Positions 14,432-54,705 of a DNA stretch of 64,000 nucleotides are shown in pieces. The DNA is from Faecalibacterium sp. Lineage in GTDB: Bacteria; Bacillota; Clostridia; Oscillospirales; Ruminococcaceae. The position numbers were made by a program, and so were the translations under genes. The notes under the pieces were generated by a model that saw only the letters and a list, made by a program, of their open reading frames with translations, did no database searches and was not told the DNA's origin. How positions within the stretch are numbered: position 1 is the first letter of the stretch; every line of letters starts with the position of its first letter. Where the stretch lies: assembly GCA_022652735.1 (NCBI GenBank), contig JALCRP010000002.1, positions 124,001-188,000 on the forward strand, written 5' to 3'.

Positions 14432-14454
14432 TCTTTTTGCAAAACAGAATAGCA

Positions 14455-14559
14455 ACTTATCCAGAGTGGTGGAGGGGACAGGCCCTATGAAACCCGACAA
14501 CCTGCGCGGCTGCACGGCCGTGTAAGGTGCCAAATCCTGCGGGAAACCGAAAGATAAGA
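14455..14559 (+). promoter_or_regulatory. SAM-I (S-box) riboswitch controlling metK
   Basis: The S-box signature blocks are in order: cttatccagagtggtggagg, gacaggccctatgaaacccg, acaacctgcg, ggtgccaaatcctgc and a closing gaaagataag that pairs with the opening cttatc. A terminator follows directly. In this class SAM binding favours the terminator, so high SAM should turn metK off. Confidence 0.95.
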
Positions 14560-14564
14560 GTGTC

Positions 14565-46147: not shown

Positions 46148-46609
46148 TCAGGCCATGCCGTTGGCCGTTTTGTACTCGTAGATCATTTCGGCGTGGTGCT
46201 GCTCTTCGGTTTGGATGGAGTTCAAAAGGCCACGCACCGCCGGGGAAGAAAACTGGAACAGATCGGTATCATAGGCAGAAGAAACATATTTTTCCGTCGT
46301 GATGCTGTCTGTGCACAGAAAGGCATCCTGCTTTTTGGCGGCAGATTTTCCGTTGGCGGTGTAGCTTGCCTTCGGCTTATAGGATTGTGCGGCCGAGCGC
46401 TTTGTGCTGGAAGCCGCGGGCACCTTGCCGGTTAAAACGTCCGACAGAGATTGATAGTGCTGCGTCTCCTGCGAGCCGATCTGGCCGAACAGCTTTTTCA
46501 GTTGCGGATCTTTTGCCTGCTCGGCATAGAACTCATATTTTTCGATGCACACTTTTTCCTGTGCCGCGAGGTCTTTAATCAGGCCTGATTCCTTTTGCGT
46601 AAGTTTCAT
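46148..46609 (-). CDS. CotF-like spore-coat / ferritin-like protein
   Basis: The 153-residue protein has two helical blocks of the ferritin-like CotF kind. The first is 'EKVCIEKYEFYAEQAKDPQL' with 'LFGQIGSQETQHYQSL'; the second is 'NSIQTEEQHHAEMIYEY', joined by a basic Ser/Lys linker. CotF-family proteins occur in spore coats of Firmicutes, while the His/Glu pattern could also bind metal. The AGGAG site is six to seven bases before the ATG. It is the last gene before the RNA locus. Confidence 0.72.
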   Translation of the reverse strand: MKLTQKESGLIKDLAAQEKVCIEKYEFYAEQAKDPQLKKLFGQIGSQETQHYQSLSDVLTGKVPAASSTKRSAAQSYKPKASYTANGKSAAKKQDAFLCTDSITTEKYVSSAYDTDLFQFSSPAVRGLLNSIQTEEQHHAEMIYEYKTANGMA

Positions 46610-46793: not shown

Positions 46794-46833
46794 TAAAAAA
46801 AGACCCCGGCGCATTGCCTTGCGCGCCGGGGCC
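46794..46833 (-). terminator. Terminator ending the large RNA
   Basis: Minus-strand ggccccggcgcgc-aaggcaat-gcgccggggtc followed by seven T residues. Confidence 0.92.
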
Positions 46834-47412
46834 ATCTTACTTCTTCGGAGTCATAGCCTCATATCCTCGTAAACCTATTTTTCGGACCGTACCATAGTTT
46901 CCATTGGTTCCACGACCTTACTTATTTCATGGGGATCGGGTCTAGCTCGATTTTATCAGAACATTGGAGTCAAAGCCTCTTTCTATTCGGTGTGATGCGG
47001 TCGATTCTCCATTTTCATGGTTCCCACATTCTTTCGGATTGCCGATAGACTACCGGTTTCTAAGCTCTGGCCTCTGCGTCCTTACCTAGTACATCGGAGT
47101 TCTCCTTTTTTAGATGATGGACGGCGGACGAGATGAAATGCTCATGTGGTCCACTTCTTTCATCCAAGTTTCTGCGGTTTGACAGGTTCTGTCGGGGGTT
47201 CGCCTTCGCTCCAGACTGTACGCTTTTCTATCTCTCTTTTTGGGTTAATACCCTTTGAATTTCAAGCGGCTCTTGCAATCCGGCGAAGCCCGACAGCCTG
47301 CCCACACTGCTCGGGTTCAACATCTACCATCGGCACCGCTCCTTTCCTCTGGCCCGCCCGATCCTGATCGGCCTTTCGGCCTTCCTTGTCTCTCCCATCG
47401 GTGGGTCTTTCT
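46794..47412 (-). ncRNA. Candidate large structured non-coding RNA (about 620 nt)
   Basis: This is a 1,050-base gene-free region (46610-47659) with lower GC than its neighbours. On the minus strand it reads from a perfect TATAAT (47423-47418) to a strong terminator (46794-46833). It contains many local hairpins, several closed by GAAA: GGCC-GAAA-GGCC (47370-47381), CCAT-GAAA-ATGG (47009-47020), and one at 46892-46907. Others are GACAG-AAC-CTGTC (47181-47193) and GATGAAA...TTTCATC (47132-47164). A CTCC module recurs three times. Size recalls OLE or ROOL RNAs, but I cannot assign a family. A tiny ORF of 22 codons near the 5' end is noted separately. Confidence 0.65.
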
Positions 47413-47417
47413 CTGGC

Positions 47418-47423
47418 ATTATA
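47418..47423 (-). promoter_or_regulatory. -10 element for the large RNA
   Basis: Perfect TATAAT on the minus strand just before the structured region. The matching -35 position (AATATC) is poor, so an activator or another start is possible. Confidence 0.5.
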
Positions 47424-47512: not shown

Positions 47513-47541
47513 TTGACACATCTAAGAATTTGTGCTACAAT
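47513..47541 (+). promoter_or_regulatory. Near-consensus promoter facing a terminator
   Basis: TTGACA (47513-47518), a 17-base spacer, and TGCTACAAT (extended -10; TACAAT 47536-47541). It is among the best promoters in the window, yet a terminator hairpin begins immediately after it. Confidence 0.7.
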
Positions 47542-47542
47542 A

Positions 47543-47583
47543 AAAAAGTCGGGGCTGCCGAAAAGGCAAGCCCCGACTTTTTA
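47543..47583. terminator. Terminator hairpin downstream of argS, also abutting the plus-strand promoter
   Basis: aaaaaagtcggggct-gcc-gaaaa-ggc-a-agccccgactttttaa. On the minus strand it is an ideal argS terminator, 77 bases past the stop. On the plus strand it starts at the expected transcription start of the promoter at 47513-47541. Confidence 0.9.
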
Positions 47584-47659: not shown

Positions 47660-49507
47660 TTACATCTTTTCCGGCACGGTTACTTTGAACATCGTCAGCA
47701 CATTGCGGATGACGCCACGCACGGCCACGCACAAAGCAAGCCGTGCCTGTTGCAGGGCCGGCTCGGCCTCCTGAATGCGGCAGGTATTGTAGAACTTGTG
47801 GAAATCGCCGGCCAGCTCGATCACAAAGCGGTTGATACGGCTCGGGTCGTACTTTTCGGCGGCCTGAATGATTTCGTTCGGGAAATTCATCAGCAGGCGG
47901 ATCAAATCCATCTCGGCCGGTTCGGTAAGCAGCGTGGCGTCGAACACGAAGCGCGGGTCAAGCGTGACGCCCTCGCCTTCCAGCTTTTTCAGGATCGAGC
48001 AGATGCGCGCATGTGCGTATTTCACGTAATAAACTGGGTTGTTGCTGTCGGCTTTAACGGCCTGATCGAGGTCGAAGTCGATGCCGCTGCCGGCATCGTG
48101 CATGTTAAACAAAAAGCGCGCGCTGTCGATGGGCACTTCCTCAAGCAGATCCGTCAGCGTGATAGCGTTGCCGGTACGCTTGGACATACGCACGGGCTGG
48201 CCGTCACGCATCAGGTTCACCATCTGCATCAGCACCACATCAAGCCGATCTCCCGAAAGGCCGATGGCATCCATCGAGCCTTTCATGCGGGCGACGTGCC
48301 CGTGATGATCGGCGCCCCAGACATCAATCGCCTTATCAAAGCCGCGCACGGCGAGCTTGTTGTAATGGTAGGCGATGTCGGCGGCAAAATAGGTGGGGAT
48401 GCCGTTGGCGCGCACAAGAACTTCGTCCTTGGCTTCTTCCTCGGTACCGTCCTCATTCTTTTTCTTATTCACTGTGCCGTATTTGGCGGCATACTGGGCG
48501 CTGCGGTACATGATCGCGCCGTCTTCGGCCTTATAGCAGGCGCCGGTTTCGAGCAGCTTGTCCACCACGGCCTTAACGGCGCCGCTTTCGTGCAGGGTGC
48601 TTTCGTGGAACCACACATCATAATCAATGCGGTATTTGGCGAGATCGCGCTGCAAGCCGGCGATATTTTTCGGCAGGGCGTAGGCAATCAGCGCATCTTT
48701 CAGCGCGGCAAAGCCTTCGCTTTCAAAAAGGGCGTCCTCGTCCTTGCCCGCGCAGGCGGCCACATAGGCGTCGCCATGCTGTGCGGCAAACTCTTCGGCT
48801 AAAACCTTGATGTCCGCGCCCTGATAGCACTCGGCGGGCAGGGGATAGGTATCCTCGCCCTTATATTTCTGCAAATAGCGCACGGCAAGGCTCTTGCCAA
48901 ACTTTTGAATCTGGTTGCCTGCGTCGTTGATATAAAATTCGCGCGTGACATCATAGCCCGCCCAATCCAGCACGGAGGCAAGGCAATCGCCCAACGCGCC
49001 GCCGCGCGCGTTGCCCATGTGCATCGGGCCGGTAGGGTTGGCAGAAACAAACTCTACGTTAATCTTTTTGCCCTGCCCAAAATCGGTGCGGCCGTACTGC
49101 GTGTTTGCGCAGGCGCCAAGCACGACGCTGCCAAAAAAGCCGCACGACAGAAACAGGTTGATGAAGCCCGGCCCGGCAATTTCTACCTTGGCAAAGCAAC
49201 TGTCTTTAATCGAAGGCAGATGCGCCAGCAGAGCGTCGGCGATCTGGCGCGGCGCTTTGTGCCATGCGCGCGCGCCGGCCATCGCAAGGTTTGAGGCAAT
49301 ATCGCCGTTTTTCGTATCGGCAGGGATTTCCACGATAAAAGCGGGCAGCTCGGCCTCGGGCAGCGCGCCCGCAGCCATCGCGGCCTTGGCGGCCTGCGTA
49401 AGCAGCGCGCGCGCCTCGTCCAGCGCATTCTGACGCGGGTTAAAGTTTTGGTAGACGGCTTGCATCTCGGCCAGTTGGGCCTGCTCGGGCGCGGTGATTT
49501 GATTCAT
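47660..49507 (-). CDS. argS: Arginyl-tRNA synthetase
   Basis: The 615-residue class I synthetase has the N-terminal tRNA-recognition domain, the HIGH-equivalent in 'VSANPTGPMHMGNARGGALG', 'VWGADHHGHVARMKGSMDAI', the KMSKS-equivalent 'RMSKRTGNAITL' and a C-terminal DALR anticodon domain ending VTVPEKM. It closes the ddl-murI-DUF1934-argS operon, 28 bases after the DUF1934 gene, and is followed by a terminator. Confidence 0.96.
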   Translation of the reverse strand: MNQITAPEQAQLAEMQAVYQNFNPRQNALDEARALLTQAAKAAMAAGALPEAELPAFIVEIPADTKNGDIASNLAMAGARAWHKAPRQIADALLAHLPSIKDSCFAKVEIAGPGFINLFLSCGFFGSVVLGACANTQYGRTDFGQGKKINVEFVSANPTGPMHMGNARGGALGDCLASVLDWAGYDVTREFYINDAGNQIQKFGKSLAVRYLQKYKGEDTYPLPAECYQGADIKVLAEEFAAQHGDAYVAACAGKDEDALFESEGFAALKDALIAYALPKNIAGLQRDLAKYRIDYDVWFHESTLHESGAVKAVVDKLLETGACYKAEDGAIMYRSAQYAAKYGTVNKKKNEDGTEEEAKDEVLVRANGIPTYFAADIAYHYNKLAVRGFDKAIDVWGADHHGHVARMKGSMDAIGLSGDRLDVVLMQMVNLMRDGQPVRMSKRTGNAITLTDLLEEVPIDSARFLFNMHDAGSGIDFDLDQAVKADSNNPVYYVKYAHARICSILKKLEGEGVTLDPRFVFDATLLTEPAEMDLIRLLMNFPNEIIQAAEKYDPSRINRFVIELAGDFHKFYNTCRIQEAEPALQQARLALCVAVRGVIRNVLTMFKVTVPEKM

Positions 49508-54515: not shown

Positions 54516-54544
54516 TTGACAAAATCGCAGCGATGCGATAAAAT
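54516..54544 (+). promoter_or_regulatory. Promoter for rplJ-rplL
   Basis: Consensus TTGACA (54516-54521), a 17-base spacer and TAAAAT (54539-54544), ten bases after the rplA stop. Confidence 0.85.
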
Positions 54545-54550
54545 ACGATT

Positions 54551-54668
54551 GCTGTTTTTAAGACAGCAGGTGCTGAAATGCGTAAGAGCAAATGCTCGCC
54601 TGCCGAGAAACGCAAGATATGAAAGTATTTTGCCTCTTTCTCGCATGCGGGAAAGAGGCTTTTTCGTT
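54551..54668 (+). promoter_or_regulatory. L10 leader
   Basis: The signature blocks agacagcaggtgctg, cgtaagagcaaatgctcg and cctgccgagaaacg match the L10(L12)4-binding leader of Firmicutes. A terminator lies at 54632-54664 inside it. Excess L10-L12 complex binding here would favour termination. Confidence 0.88.
54632..54664 (+). terminator. Attenuator terminator in the L10 leader
   Basis: gcctctttc-tcgcatgcgg-gaaagaggc followed by TTTTT, about 40 bases before the rplJ start. Confidence 0.9.
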
Positions 54669-54705
54669 GCCAGTAGGAAAATTTCGGGAAACGAGGTGAA
54701 ACAAA

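Follow-up and report, generated by a model that had tools for sequence, protein, structure and literature searches.

tmRNA (RF00023) is a structured RNA with a short translated frame and a resume codon, and the dual-function sRNAs RNAIII and SgrS encode peptides. Two-codon minigenes, lambda barI among them, are a further case of very short frames. Two-codon frames with a strong Shine–Dalgarno (SD) sequence have been reported to re-initiate after release and to release peptidyl-tRNA; the axe-txe minigene mg2 acted in cis only, was non-toxic and was proposed to protect its mRNA in cis, with no trans effect (PMC8708949). Nearest by size to the RNA considered below are the ornate RNAs OLE, ROOL and GOLLD, large stand-alone structured bacterial RNAs of several hundred nucleotides that form homo-oligomeric RNA-only complexes (PMC12286853).

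The candidate RNA gene examined here, located in a 64,000-nt stretch of Faecalibacterium DNA (hereafter, the window), resembles each of these systems in part. It shares size and independence with OLE, ROOL and GOLLD but has no Rfam match and carries a chain of micro-ORFs. As in tmRNA, a structured RNA would contain a short translated frame, but many start sites take the place of a resume codon, and the tmRNA of the genome lies elsewhere. Its own promoter and terminator, together with small ORFs, recall the dual-function sRNAs, from which it differs in having seven micro-ORFs in its basic form with peptides that are mostly unconserved. The arrangement of SD, ATG, one sense codon and stop is that of lambda barI and axe-txe mg2; those minigenes sit inside phage or operon transcripts, mg2 being cis-acting, whereas here two or more usually stand beside longer micro-ORFs in a dedicated, structured and terminated RNA. 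Leader-peptide attenuators likewise couple short ORFs to RNA folding, and metG lies downstream in part of the family, but the present RNA has its own terminator and the orientation of metG is inconstant. We know of no described kind of RNA that folds, stands alone and preserves a micro-ORF chain while most of the encoded peptides change, and no description of this RNA was found in the literature searched, which covered Faecalibacterium ncRNA, minigenes and ribosome sponges as well as MetaRibo-Seq and microbiome structured-RNA papers.

An earlier sequence-only reading of the window had proposed a large structured RNA in a gene-free gap of low GC content, with TATAAT at one end and a strong terminator at the other. 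The gap spans 1,050 nt between a ferritin-like gene and argS and is indeed devoid of a credible long ORF. Its GC content (49.8%) is below that of argS (58.3%), metG (57.0%) and the window as a whole (57.7%), but the ferritin-like neighbor, at just 51.7%, is scarcely richer. Both ends of the proposed RNA were recovered on the minus strand (TATAAT at 47423–47418; a 12-bp terminator stem and T-run at 46833–46795), and the span from promoter to terminator gives a minus-strand transcription unit of ~620 nt, in agreement with the earlier proposal. The features of the locus, with ORF coordinates checked by translation, are as follows, in the direction of transcription.

47660–49507, minus strand: argS, bounding the gap
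47450–47436, minus strand: upstream promoter element ATGGAATATCGGACA, which looks like a diverged form of the relatives' TGCGAATAGACA
47418–47423, minus strand: -10 box TATAAT, from sequence
46794–47413, minus strand: predicted transcript of ~620 nt, structured RNA (from promoter and terminator, aligned homologues and structure beyond shuffles)
47370–47381, minus strand: hairpin GGCCGAAAGGCC (loop GAAA), placed in the 5′ part of the RNA, which in relatives contains a covarying hairpin
47262–47330, minus strand: ORF-A, MVDVEPEQCGQAVGLRRIARAA, 22 codons; SD AAGGAG 8 nt upstream
47110–47145, minus strand: ORF-B, MSISSRPPSII; the window copy is without an SD of at least 4 nt, unlike the 14 remaining rows of alignment A1 (described below), which have one
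47086–47094, minus strand: ORF-C, two codons, ATG TAC TAG; SD AAGGAG 7 nt upstream
46983–47018, minus strand: ORF-D, MKMENRPHHTE; no SD of at least 4 nt; homologous frame in the alignment, window row unaligned at the ATG
46956–46964, minus strand: ORF-C′, two codons, ATG TTC TGA, after SD GAGG; the first repeat-module copy of the earlier reading
46875–46904, minus strand: ORF-E, METMVRSEK; SD TAAGG
46837–46854, minus strand: ORF-F, MTPKK; SD GAGG 10 nt upstream, DNA GAGG-N1-3-ATGACTCCRAAGAAGTAA; the second module copy
46795–46833, minus strand: intrinsic terminator with 12-bp stem, 8-nt loop and T-run, beginning 3 nt past ORF-F
46148–46609, minus strand: ferritin-like/coat-F domain gene, bounding the gap

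On the opposite strand, the window also holds a near-perfect sigma-70-type promoter (47513–47583, plus strand; TTGACA-17-TACAAT with TG before the -10) that faces the argS end; as it runs directly into a strong terminator-like hairpin, a transcript from it would be ~40 nt long.

The repeat modules described earlier are present, as GAGGCTNTGACTCC at 46979–46956 and 46860–46837 and as GGAGAACTCCGATG at 47105–47092. It was correctly stated that no long reading frame in the region is convincing; what had been overlooked is that the modules themselves look like ribosome-binding sites with tiny ORFs. The conserved GAGGCTNTGACTCC blocks are predicted SD sites plus micro-ORFs, and seven micro-ORFs follow one another along the RNA in the fixed order A, B, C, D, C′, E, F, with start-to-stop frames of 2 to 22 codons. 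Their typical lengths are ~16, 11, 2, 14, 2, 9 and 5 codons, respectively (ranges: A, 16 in most and 22 in the window; B, 10–12; C, 2; D, 13–16 and 11 in the window; C′, 2; E, 7 or 9; F, 5). The window RNA contains six ATGs with an SD match and a stop within 25 codons, compared to 1.99 expected (p 0.015, 200 dinucleotide shuffles). By the same criteria, five ORFs of up to 16 codons occur in it, relative to a same-strand mean of 0.36 per 620 nt; another same-strand 620-nt stretch (from 48012, inside argS) holds four, and the other strand holds at most two. Since five micro-ORFs against four make the window by itself weak evidence, the case is built on conservation across species.

To describe the distribution of the RNA, BLASTN comparisons were made to 61 genomes. 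The RNA was found in 28 of the 31 belonging to the genus Faecalibacterium (the window's own genome included), the three without a match being 77–83% complete and all 22 genus members of at least 90% completeness having it; the 30 other genomes, from 30 genera, gave no BLASTN match to the RNA. Furthermore, an exact ORF-F pattern returned 33 stretches from a collection of 84,980 species, titled Faecalibacterium, Gemmiger, Subdoligranulum (one) and "Oscillospiraceae bacterium" (one). This one pattern had no matches in a viral contig collection, and a phage origin was set aside on that single search. A sequence profile of the E–F block (R1, R2) matched 21 of 396 family genomes and 6 of 126 genera at E ≤ 0.001, with no match at this threshold in the remaining 120 genera sampled. 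Upon inspection, the members comprise five genera: Faecalibacterium, Gemmiger (g214), g212 (just the 3′ end of the RNA on its contig), g178 and g264. Within a sample of the order, 7 of 394 matched the profile, of which five were of the window's own genus and two were weak matches rejected on inspection. Weak matches in G629 (g245), G396 and G163 look like ordinary genes or chance on inspection, and three more, in G307, G537 and G144 (E 0.001–0.007), are weak candidates. Distant members may be missed, given that the Infernal profile searches were run with stricter filters.

Two loci, L082 (G429, genus g178) and L083 (G533), have two tandem copies of the RNA ~790–825 nt apart, with the promoter element before each; the peptides of these copies have diverged and the micro-ORF layout is the same. 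A Gemmiger-group genome (L116, G741) has a second, shorter paralogue with ORF-A MANFKDPIHYRRAWAC, a two-codon MY frame and MTPII, in which no ORF-E was seen between ORF-C and ORF-F.

A recognisable promoter lies at the expected place in 39 of 42 loci; that of the window is diverged, and two loci (L008 and L039) gave none. The element preceding the RNA in F. prausnitzii is GAATAGACA, and close forms also precede the RNA in g178 and g264. We considered whether the promoter defines a regulon: the exact pattern TGCGAATAGAC-N15-19-TATARTA matches once per genome, at the RNA, in 10 of 14 genomes and nowhere in the other four, and this idea was dropped. Downstream of the promoter, the RNA starts near GCCAGAAAC or TCACAGAAA, continues into a folded body and ends at an intrinsic terminator a few bases past the last ORF. 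Its length is 0.63–1.15 kb in other Faecalibacterium, 0.82–1.30 kb in the Gemmiger group and, by eye, ~0.5 kb in g178 and g264; in the long forms, B–C or B–C–D–C′ units are duplicated. A pairing that would close the 5′ and 3′ ends (AAGCC with GGCTT or TAGCC with GGCTA) seemed attractive by eye but was set aside, as several species cannot form it and it runs into the transcription start.

Conservation was assessed in two alignments, A1 (15 of 17 short-type RNAs, omitting the near-identical L014 and L015; the 10 longer Faecalibacterium forms do not enter it) and A2 (11 of 14 Gemmiger-group RNAs, without L039, L043 and L074; one titled Subdoligranulum and two from g214), and in a set of 40 RNAs (the 42 loci minus L008 and L039, which have no recognisable promoter, with the window's own RNA, L001, cut at its window coordinates). 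Across these 40 related and thus non-independent RNAs, ORFs with an SD of at least 4 nt, an ATG and a stop within 25 codons number 7.6 per RNA on average, compared to 1.8 in dinucleotide shuffles; when an SD of at least 5 nt is required, the means in the same related RNAs are 4.0 and 0.5 (one RNA, L053, gives p 0.10 when taken singly). In A1, an aligned ATG is present in 104 of 105 cells, the single exception being ORF-D of the window, whose ATG is shifted in the alignment, and all 104 are followed by an in-frame stop within 22 codons. Column identity in A1 is 0.997 at the ATG, 0.92 at the SD, 0.84 inside the ORFs and 0.81 elsewhere, so that the inside of an ORF is barely better conserved than the remaining columns. 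Within A1, the rows differ in stop codon at ORFs B, C, D, C′ and E, which makes five of the seven.

The peptides follow a different pattern. ORF-A has 16 codons in 14 of 15 A1 RNAs (22 in the window) and, where readable in four genera, 15 or 16 (again 22 in the window), but its peptides in Faecalibacterium (MVDMEPAQFGQTVGIR) and Gemmiger (MANFKDPIHHRRAWAC) are nearly unrelated, having little beyond a Pro in common. Ratios of non-synonymous to synonymous change (pN/pS), computed from distinct equal-length sequences (leaving out the 22-codon ORF-A of the window and a 15-codon ORF-A, L029), are 0.84 for A (19 sequences), 0.90 for B (20), 0.44 for D (9), 1.00 for the 30-nt form of E (12) and 0.73 for its 24-nt form (7). 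These values are biased upward, since predicted helices overlap parts of ORFs A and B and synonymous sites there are not free. ORF-E keeps the nucleotides CCGAAAA in two reading frames, ending in SEK after 9 codons or RK after 7. We weighed the possibility that the RNA is a polycistronic mRNA with structured spacers, encoding several micropeptides that function as signals, as regulators or as short antimicrobial peptides. SDs with conserved starts and stops would be expected of such an mRNA, ORF-A of Gemmiger is nearly invariant, and the pN/pS of ORF-D hints, over nine sequences, at a constrained peptide. The ORF-A peptides of three genera, moreover, have in common a motif (T/E)P(A/V)Q, as DTTPAQ in some Faecalibacterium and g178 and as EP(A/V)Q in Faecalibacterium and g264; MTPKK is encoded by ORF-F in all 33 stretches found by the ORF-F pattern, which itself required that sequence. 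Against an mRNA of this kind stand the ratios for A, B and the 30-nt E, the near-unrelated ORF-A peptides of equal length in the two main genera, the two frames of ORF-E and the two-codon frames, which carry little peptide information and change residue. We regard functional micropeptides as rather improbable.

The two-codon layout (SD, ATG, one codon, stop) is conserved for ORF-C in 15 of 15 A1 rows and for ORF-C′ in 11 of 15, the other four having 3, 3, 5 and 15 codons. Among 48 distinct two-codon sites collected from 44 RNAs of four genera by a search pattern that itself fixes the ATG and a stop, the sense codon is TAC in 37, ATT in six, ATC in three, AAC in one and TTC in one, and the stop is TAG in 26, TAA in 19 and TGA in three. 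In 26 of these sites, which are related by descent, the stop is followed at position +4 by another one in the +1 frame (TAAGTAA, TAGTTAG), compared to ~2 expected (3/64 per site); this extra stop perhaps guards against slippage or read-through. ORF-F always has five codons (MTPKK, MTPII, MTPIG, MTPIM or MKPII) and is nearly invariant at the DNA level, third positions included, in Faecalibacterium and Gemmiger. The SD is less constant: ORF-D is without one in 12 of 15 A1 rows, ORF-B in both of the distant genera g178 and g264 and ORF-E in g178, and ORF-F of g264 has no well-placed SD, just GAGG 2 nt from its ATG. Two local pairings were rejected as general features, namely a GGAG-NNN-CTCC hairpin over the SD of ORF-C (it can form in Gemmiger and part of Faecalibacterium, but several F. 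prausnitzii strains have lost the pairing) and an anti-SD in ORF-D against the SD of ORF-A (inconsistent among rows).

The single window sequence folds moderately better than its shuffles (z -2.1, 20 shuffles). RNAalifold gave -79.5 kcal/mol for A1 and -144.3 kcal/mol for A2, compared to -36.9 and -81.7 kcal/mol after column shuffling (15 shuffles each), and with the terminators removed the z-scores are -4.5 (A1) and -9.2 (A2); these column-shuffle controls preserve neither dinucleotides nor phylogeny. Without the terminator, two-sided pair changes number 12 in A1 relative to 5.7 in shuffles (maximum 9 in 15) and 31 in A2 relative to 8.0 (maximum 13 in 15). The clearest covarying elements are the Faecalibacterium 5′ hairpin, with the pair variants AGCUC/GAGCU, GGAUC/GAUCC and AGUUC/GAACU among relatives, and a long arm in Gemmiger (A2 columns 97–122 with 356–379). 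The RNA thus has homologues in five genera with two-sided changes beyond column shuffles, and no conserved long protein frame was found. We are highly confident that this structured RNA gene and its conserved chain of micro-ORFs are real.

Such conservation could also be that of a structural noncoding RNA in which the SD- and AUG-like motifs serve RNA pairing or protein binding, with little or no translation. The conserved folding and covariation are what this explanation predicts, CCGAAAA and GAGGN1-3ATGACTCC are near-invariant, codon 4 of ORF-F stands, by eye, where ORF-C-type modules have their ATG, and several ORFs of distant members are without an SD. RNA constraint can, in principle, imitate ORF conservation and push pN/pS towards 1, and may do so here, given the near-invariant third positions of ORF-F and the predicted helices over ORFs A and B. 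An untranslated RNA would not, on the other hand, be expected to keep in-frame stops of changing identity, to vary its ORF lengths by whole codons or to back up the stop of a two-codon site with one in the +1 frame, as 26 of the 48 distinct sites do. Protein binding of one specific kind was also addressed: CsrA is absent from 10 of 10 genomes of four genera, so the RNA is not a GGA-motif CsrA sponge. Overall, we consider a purely structural role unlikely.

The earlier reading had further suggested either a divergent OLE, ROOL or GOLLD or a new class, and had pointed to Rfam models for these RNAs (RF01071, RF03087 and RF01998, respectively), HEARO and raiA. No match at gathering score was obtained in the window's RNA or in that of 10 homologous loci. 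Matches of the window region up to E 10 all fall far below the families' own cut-offs, and the single match in the 10 loci is a T-box outside the RNA. A disguised tmRNA or RNase P RNA was rejected as well, as the region gave no tmRNA match and the genome's tmRNA and RNase P lie at G000:C1:84167-84510 and G000:C1:185955-186295. Similar size and a stand-alone gene speak for a divergent form of one of the known large RNAs (OLE, ROOL, GOLLD, HEARO, raiA), of tmRNA or of RNase P, but with Rfam silent in the window RNA and in 10 homologous loci this is very improbable. Homologues, promoter, terminator and structure thus support the new-class half of the suggestion, and its OLE/ROOL/GOLLD half found no support. 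The same Rfam search located a SAM riboswitch (14454–14560, plus strand; 67.2 bits) and a ribosomal protein L10 leader (54539–54674, plus strand; 51.5 bits) elsewhere in the window.

Gene neighborhoods were compared over 33 named loci by tblastn with four window genes, many loci being cut short. In 14 loci argS precedes the RNA on the same strand, and five loci gave no match to any of the four genes. metG lies downstream in 20 of the 33, in 13 on the strand of the RNA (169–1,854 nt after ORF-F) and in seven on the opposite strand beyond tatD (five Gemmiger, two Faecalibacterium); the other 13 loci show no metG in the stretch examined. In the window, metG is ~1.0 kb downstream of the RNA, behind the ferritin-like gene. 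The argS–RNA–metG/tatD neighborhood is therefore largely common, with variable orientation and intervening DNA. That two aminoacyl-tRNA synthetase genes lie so near may reflect nothing more than ancestry; it is also a lead on a candidate link to aminoacyl-tRNA supply. By eye, an ATP-synthase-like gene lies upstream of the RNA in several F. prausnitzii and relatives.

These neighborhoods bear on a further explanation, that the RNA acts in cis as a leader (attenuator) and controls, through its micro-ORFs, the gene that follows, with metG (methionyl-tRNA synthetase) as the candidate. A row of short ORFs that ends in a terminator has the look of a leader-peptide attenuator, a cis role is conceivable in the 13 of 33 loci where metG follows on the strand of the RNA, and two-codon ORFs act in cis in axe-txe (PMC8708949). 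In one sequence (L010, identical to L058; Faecalibacterium An121), a T-box leader (L010:1729-1995, plus strand) lies ~130 nt past the RNA terminator and before metG, which can likewise be counted on the side of a leader. Of the 20 loci in which metG is seen, however, 7 have it past tatD and in the other orientation, so that a cis leader of metG could apply in part of the family only; in the window, furthermore, the RNA has its own terminator 3 nt after ORF-F and another gene intervenes. We judge a cis-acting leader to be quite unlikely.

The reading that we favor, if tentatively, is that of a structured ribosome-engaging RNA in which translation itself, and not the peptides, is under selection, most plausibly as a trans-acting translation sensor or decoy. 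Translation is proposed as the function because starts and in-frame stops are kept while most peptides drift. According to this proposal, the product of an autonomous structured RNA gene would be engaged by ribosomes at a chain of micro-ORFs, where they would initiate, make a few peptide bonds, terminate and possibly re-initiate, and this traffic would hold or remodel the RNA fold. The RNA would take up initiating ribosomes and initiator tRNA, and its two-codon fMet-Tyr, fMet-Ile and fMet-Phe frames would take up dipeptidyl-tRNAs, such that RNA stability, shape or drain on translation could report or tune ribosome supply. A folded RNA with several such sites would amount to a platform for ribosomes, and the step from there to a sensor or decoy is a further inference. 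A still somewhat more guarded suggestion is that this represents a new kind of RNA, neither an mRNA nor a usual noncoding RNA, namely a folded platform on which several ribosomes would initiate and terminate on micro-ORFs with irrelevant products, their occupancy being the signal or effector (a reservoir, decoy or gauge of ribosomes or initiator tRNA).

If this holds true, the RNA would belong to a class fitting neither "coding" nor "noncoding", with translation sites conserved and most peptides not. It is present in all 22 near-complete genomes examined of the genus of Faecalibacterium prausnitzii, a major commensal of the human gut, yet has no Rfam match. Pipelines treating structured RNAs and small ORFs as alternatives could, on this view, miss such genes. 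For this lineage of human gut bacteria, it would then be a natural example of an RNA whose functional output is ribosome occupancy.
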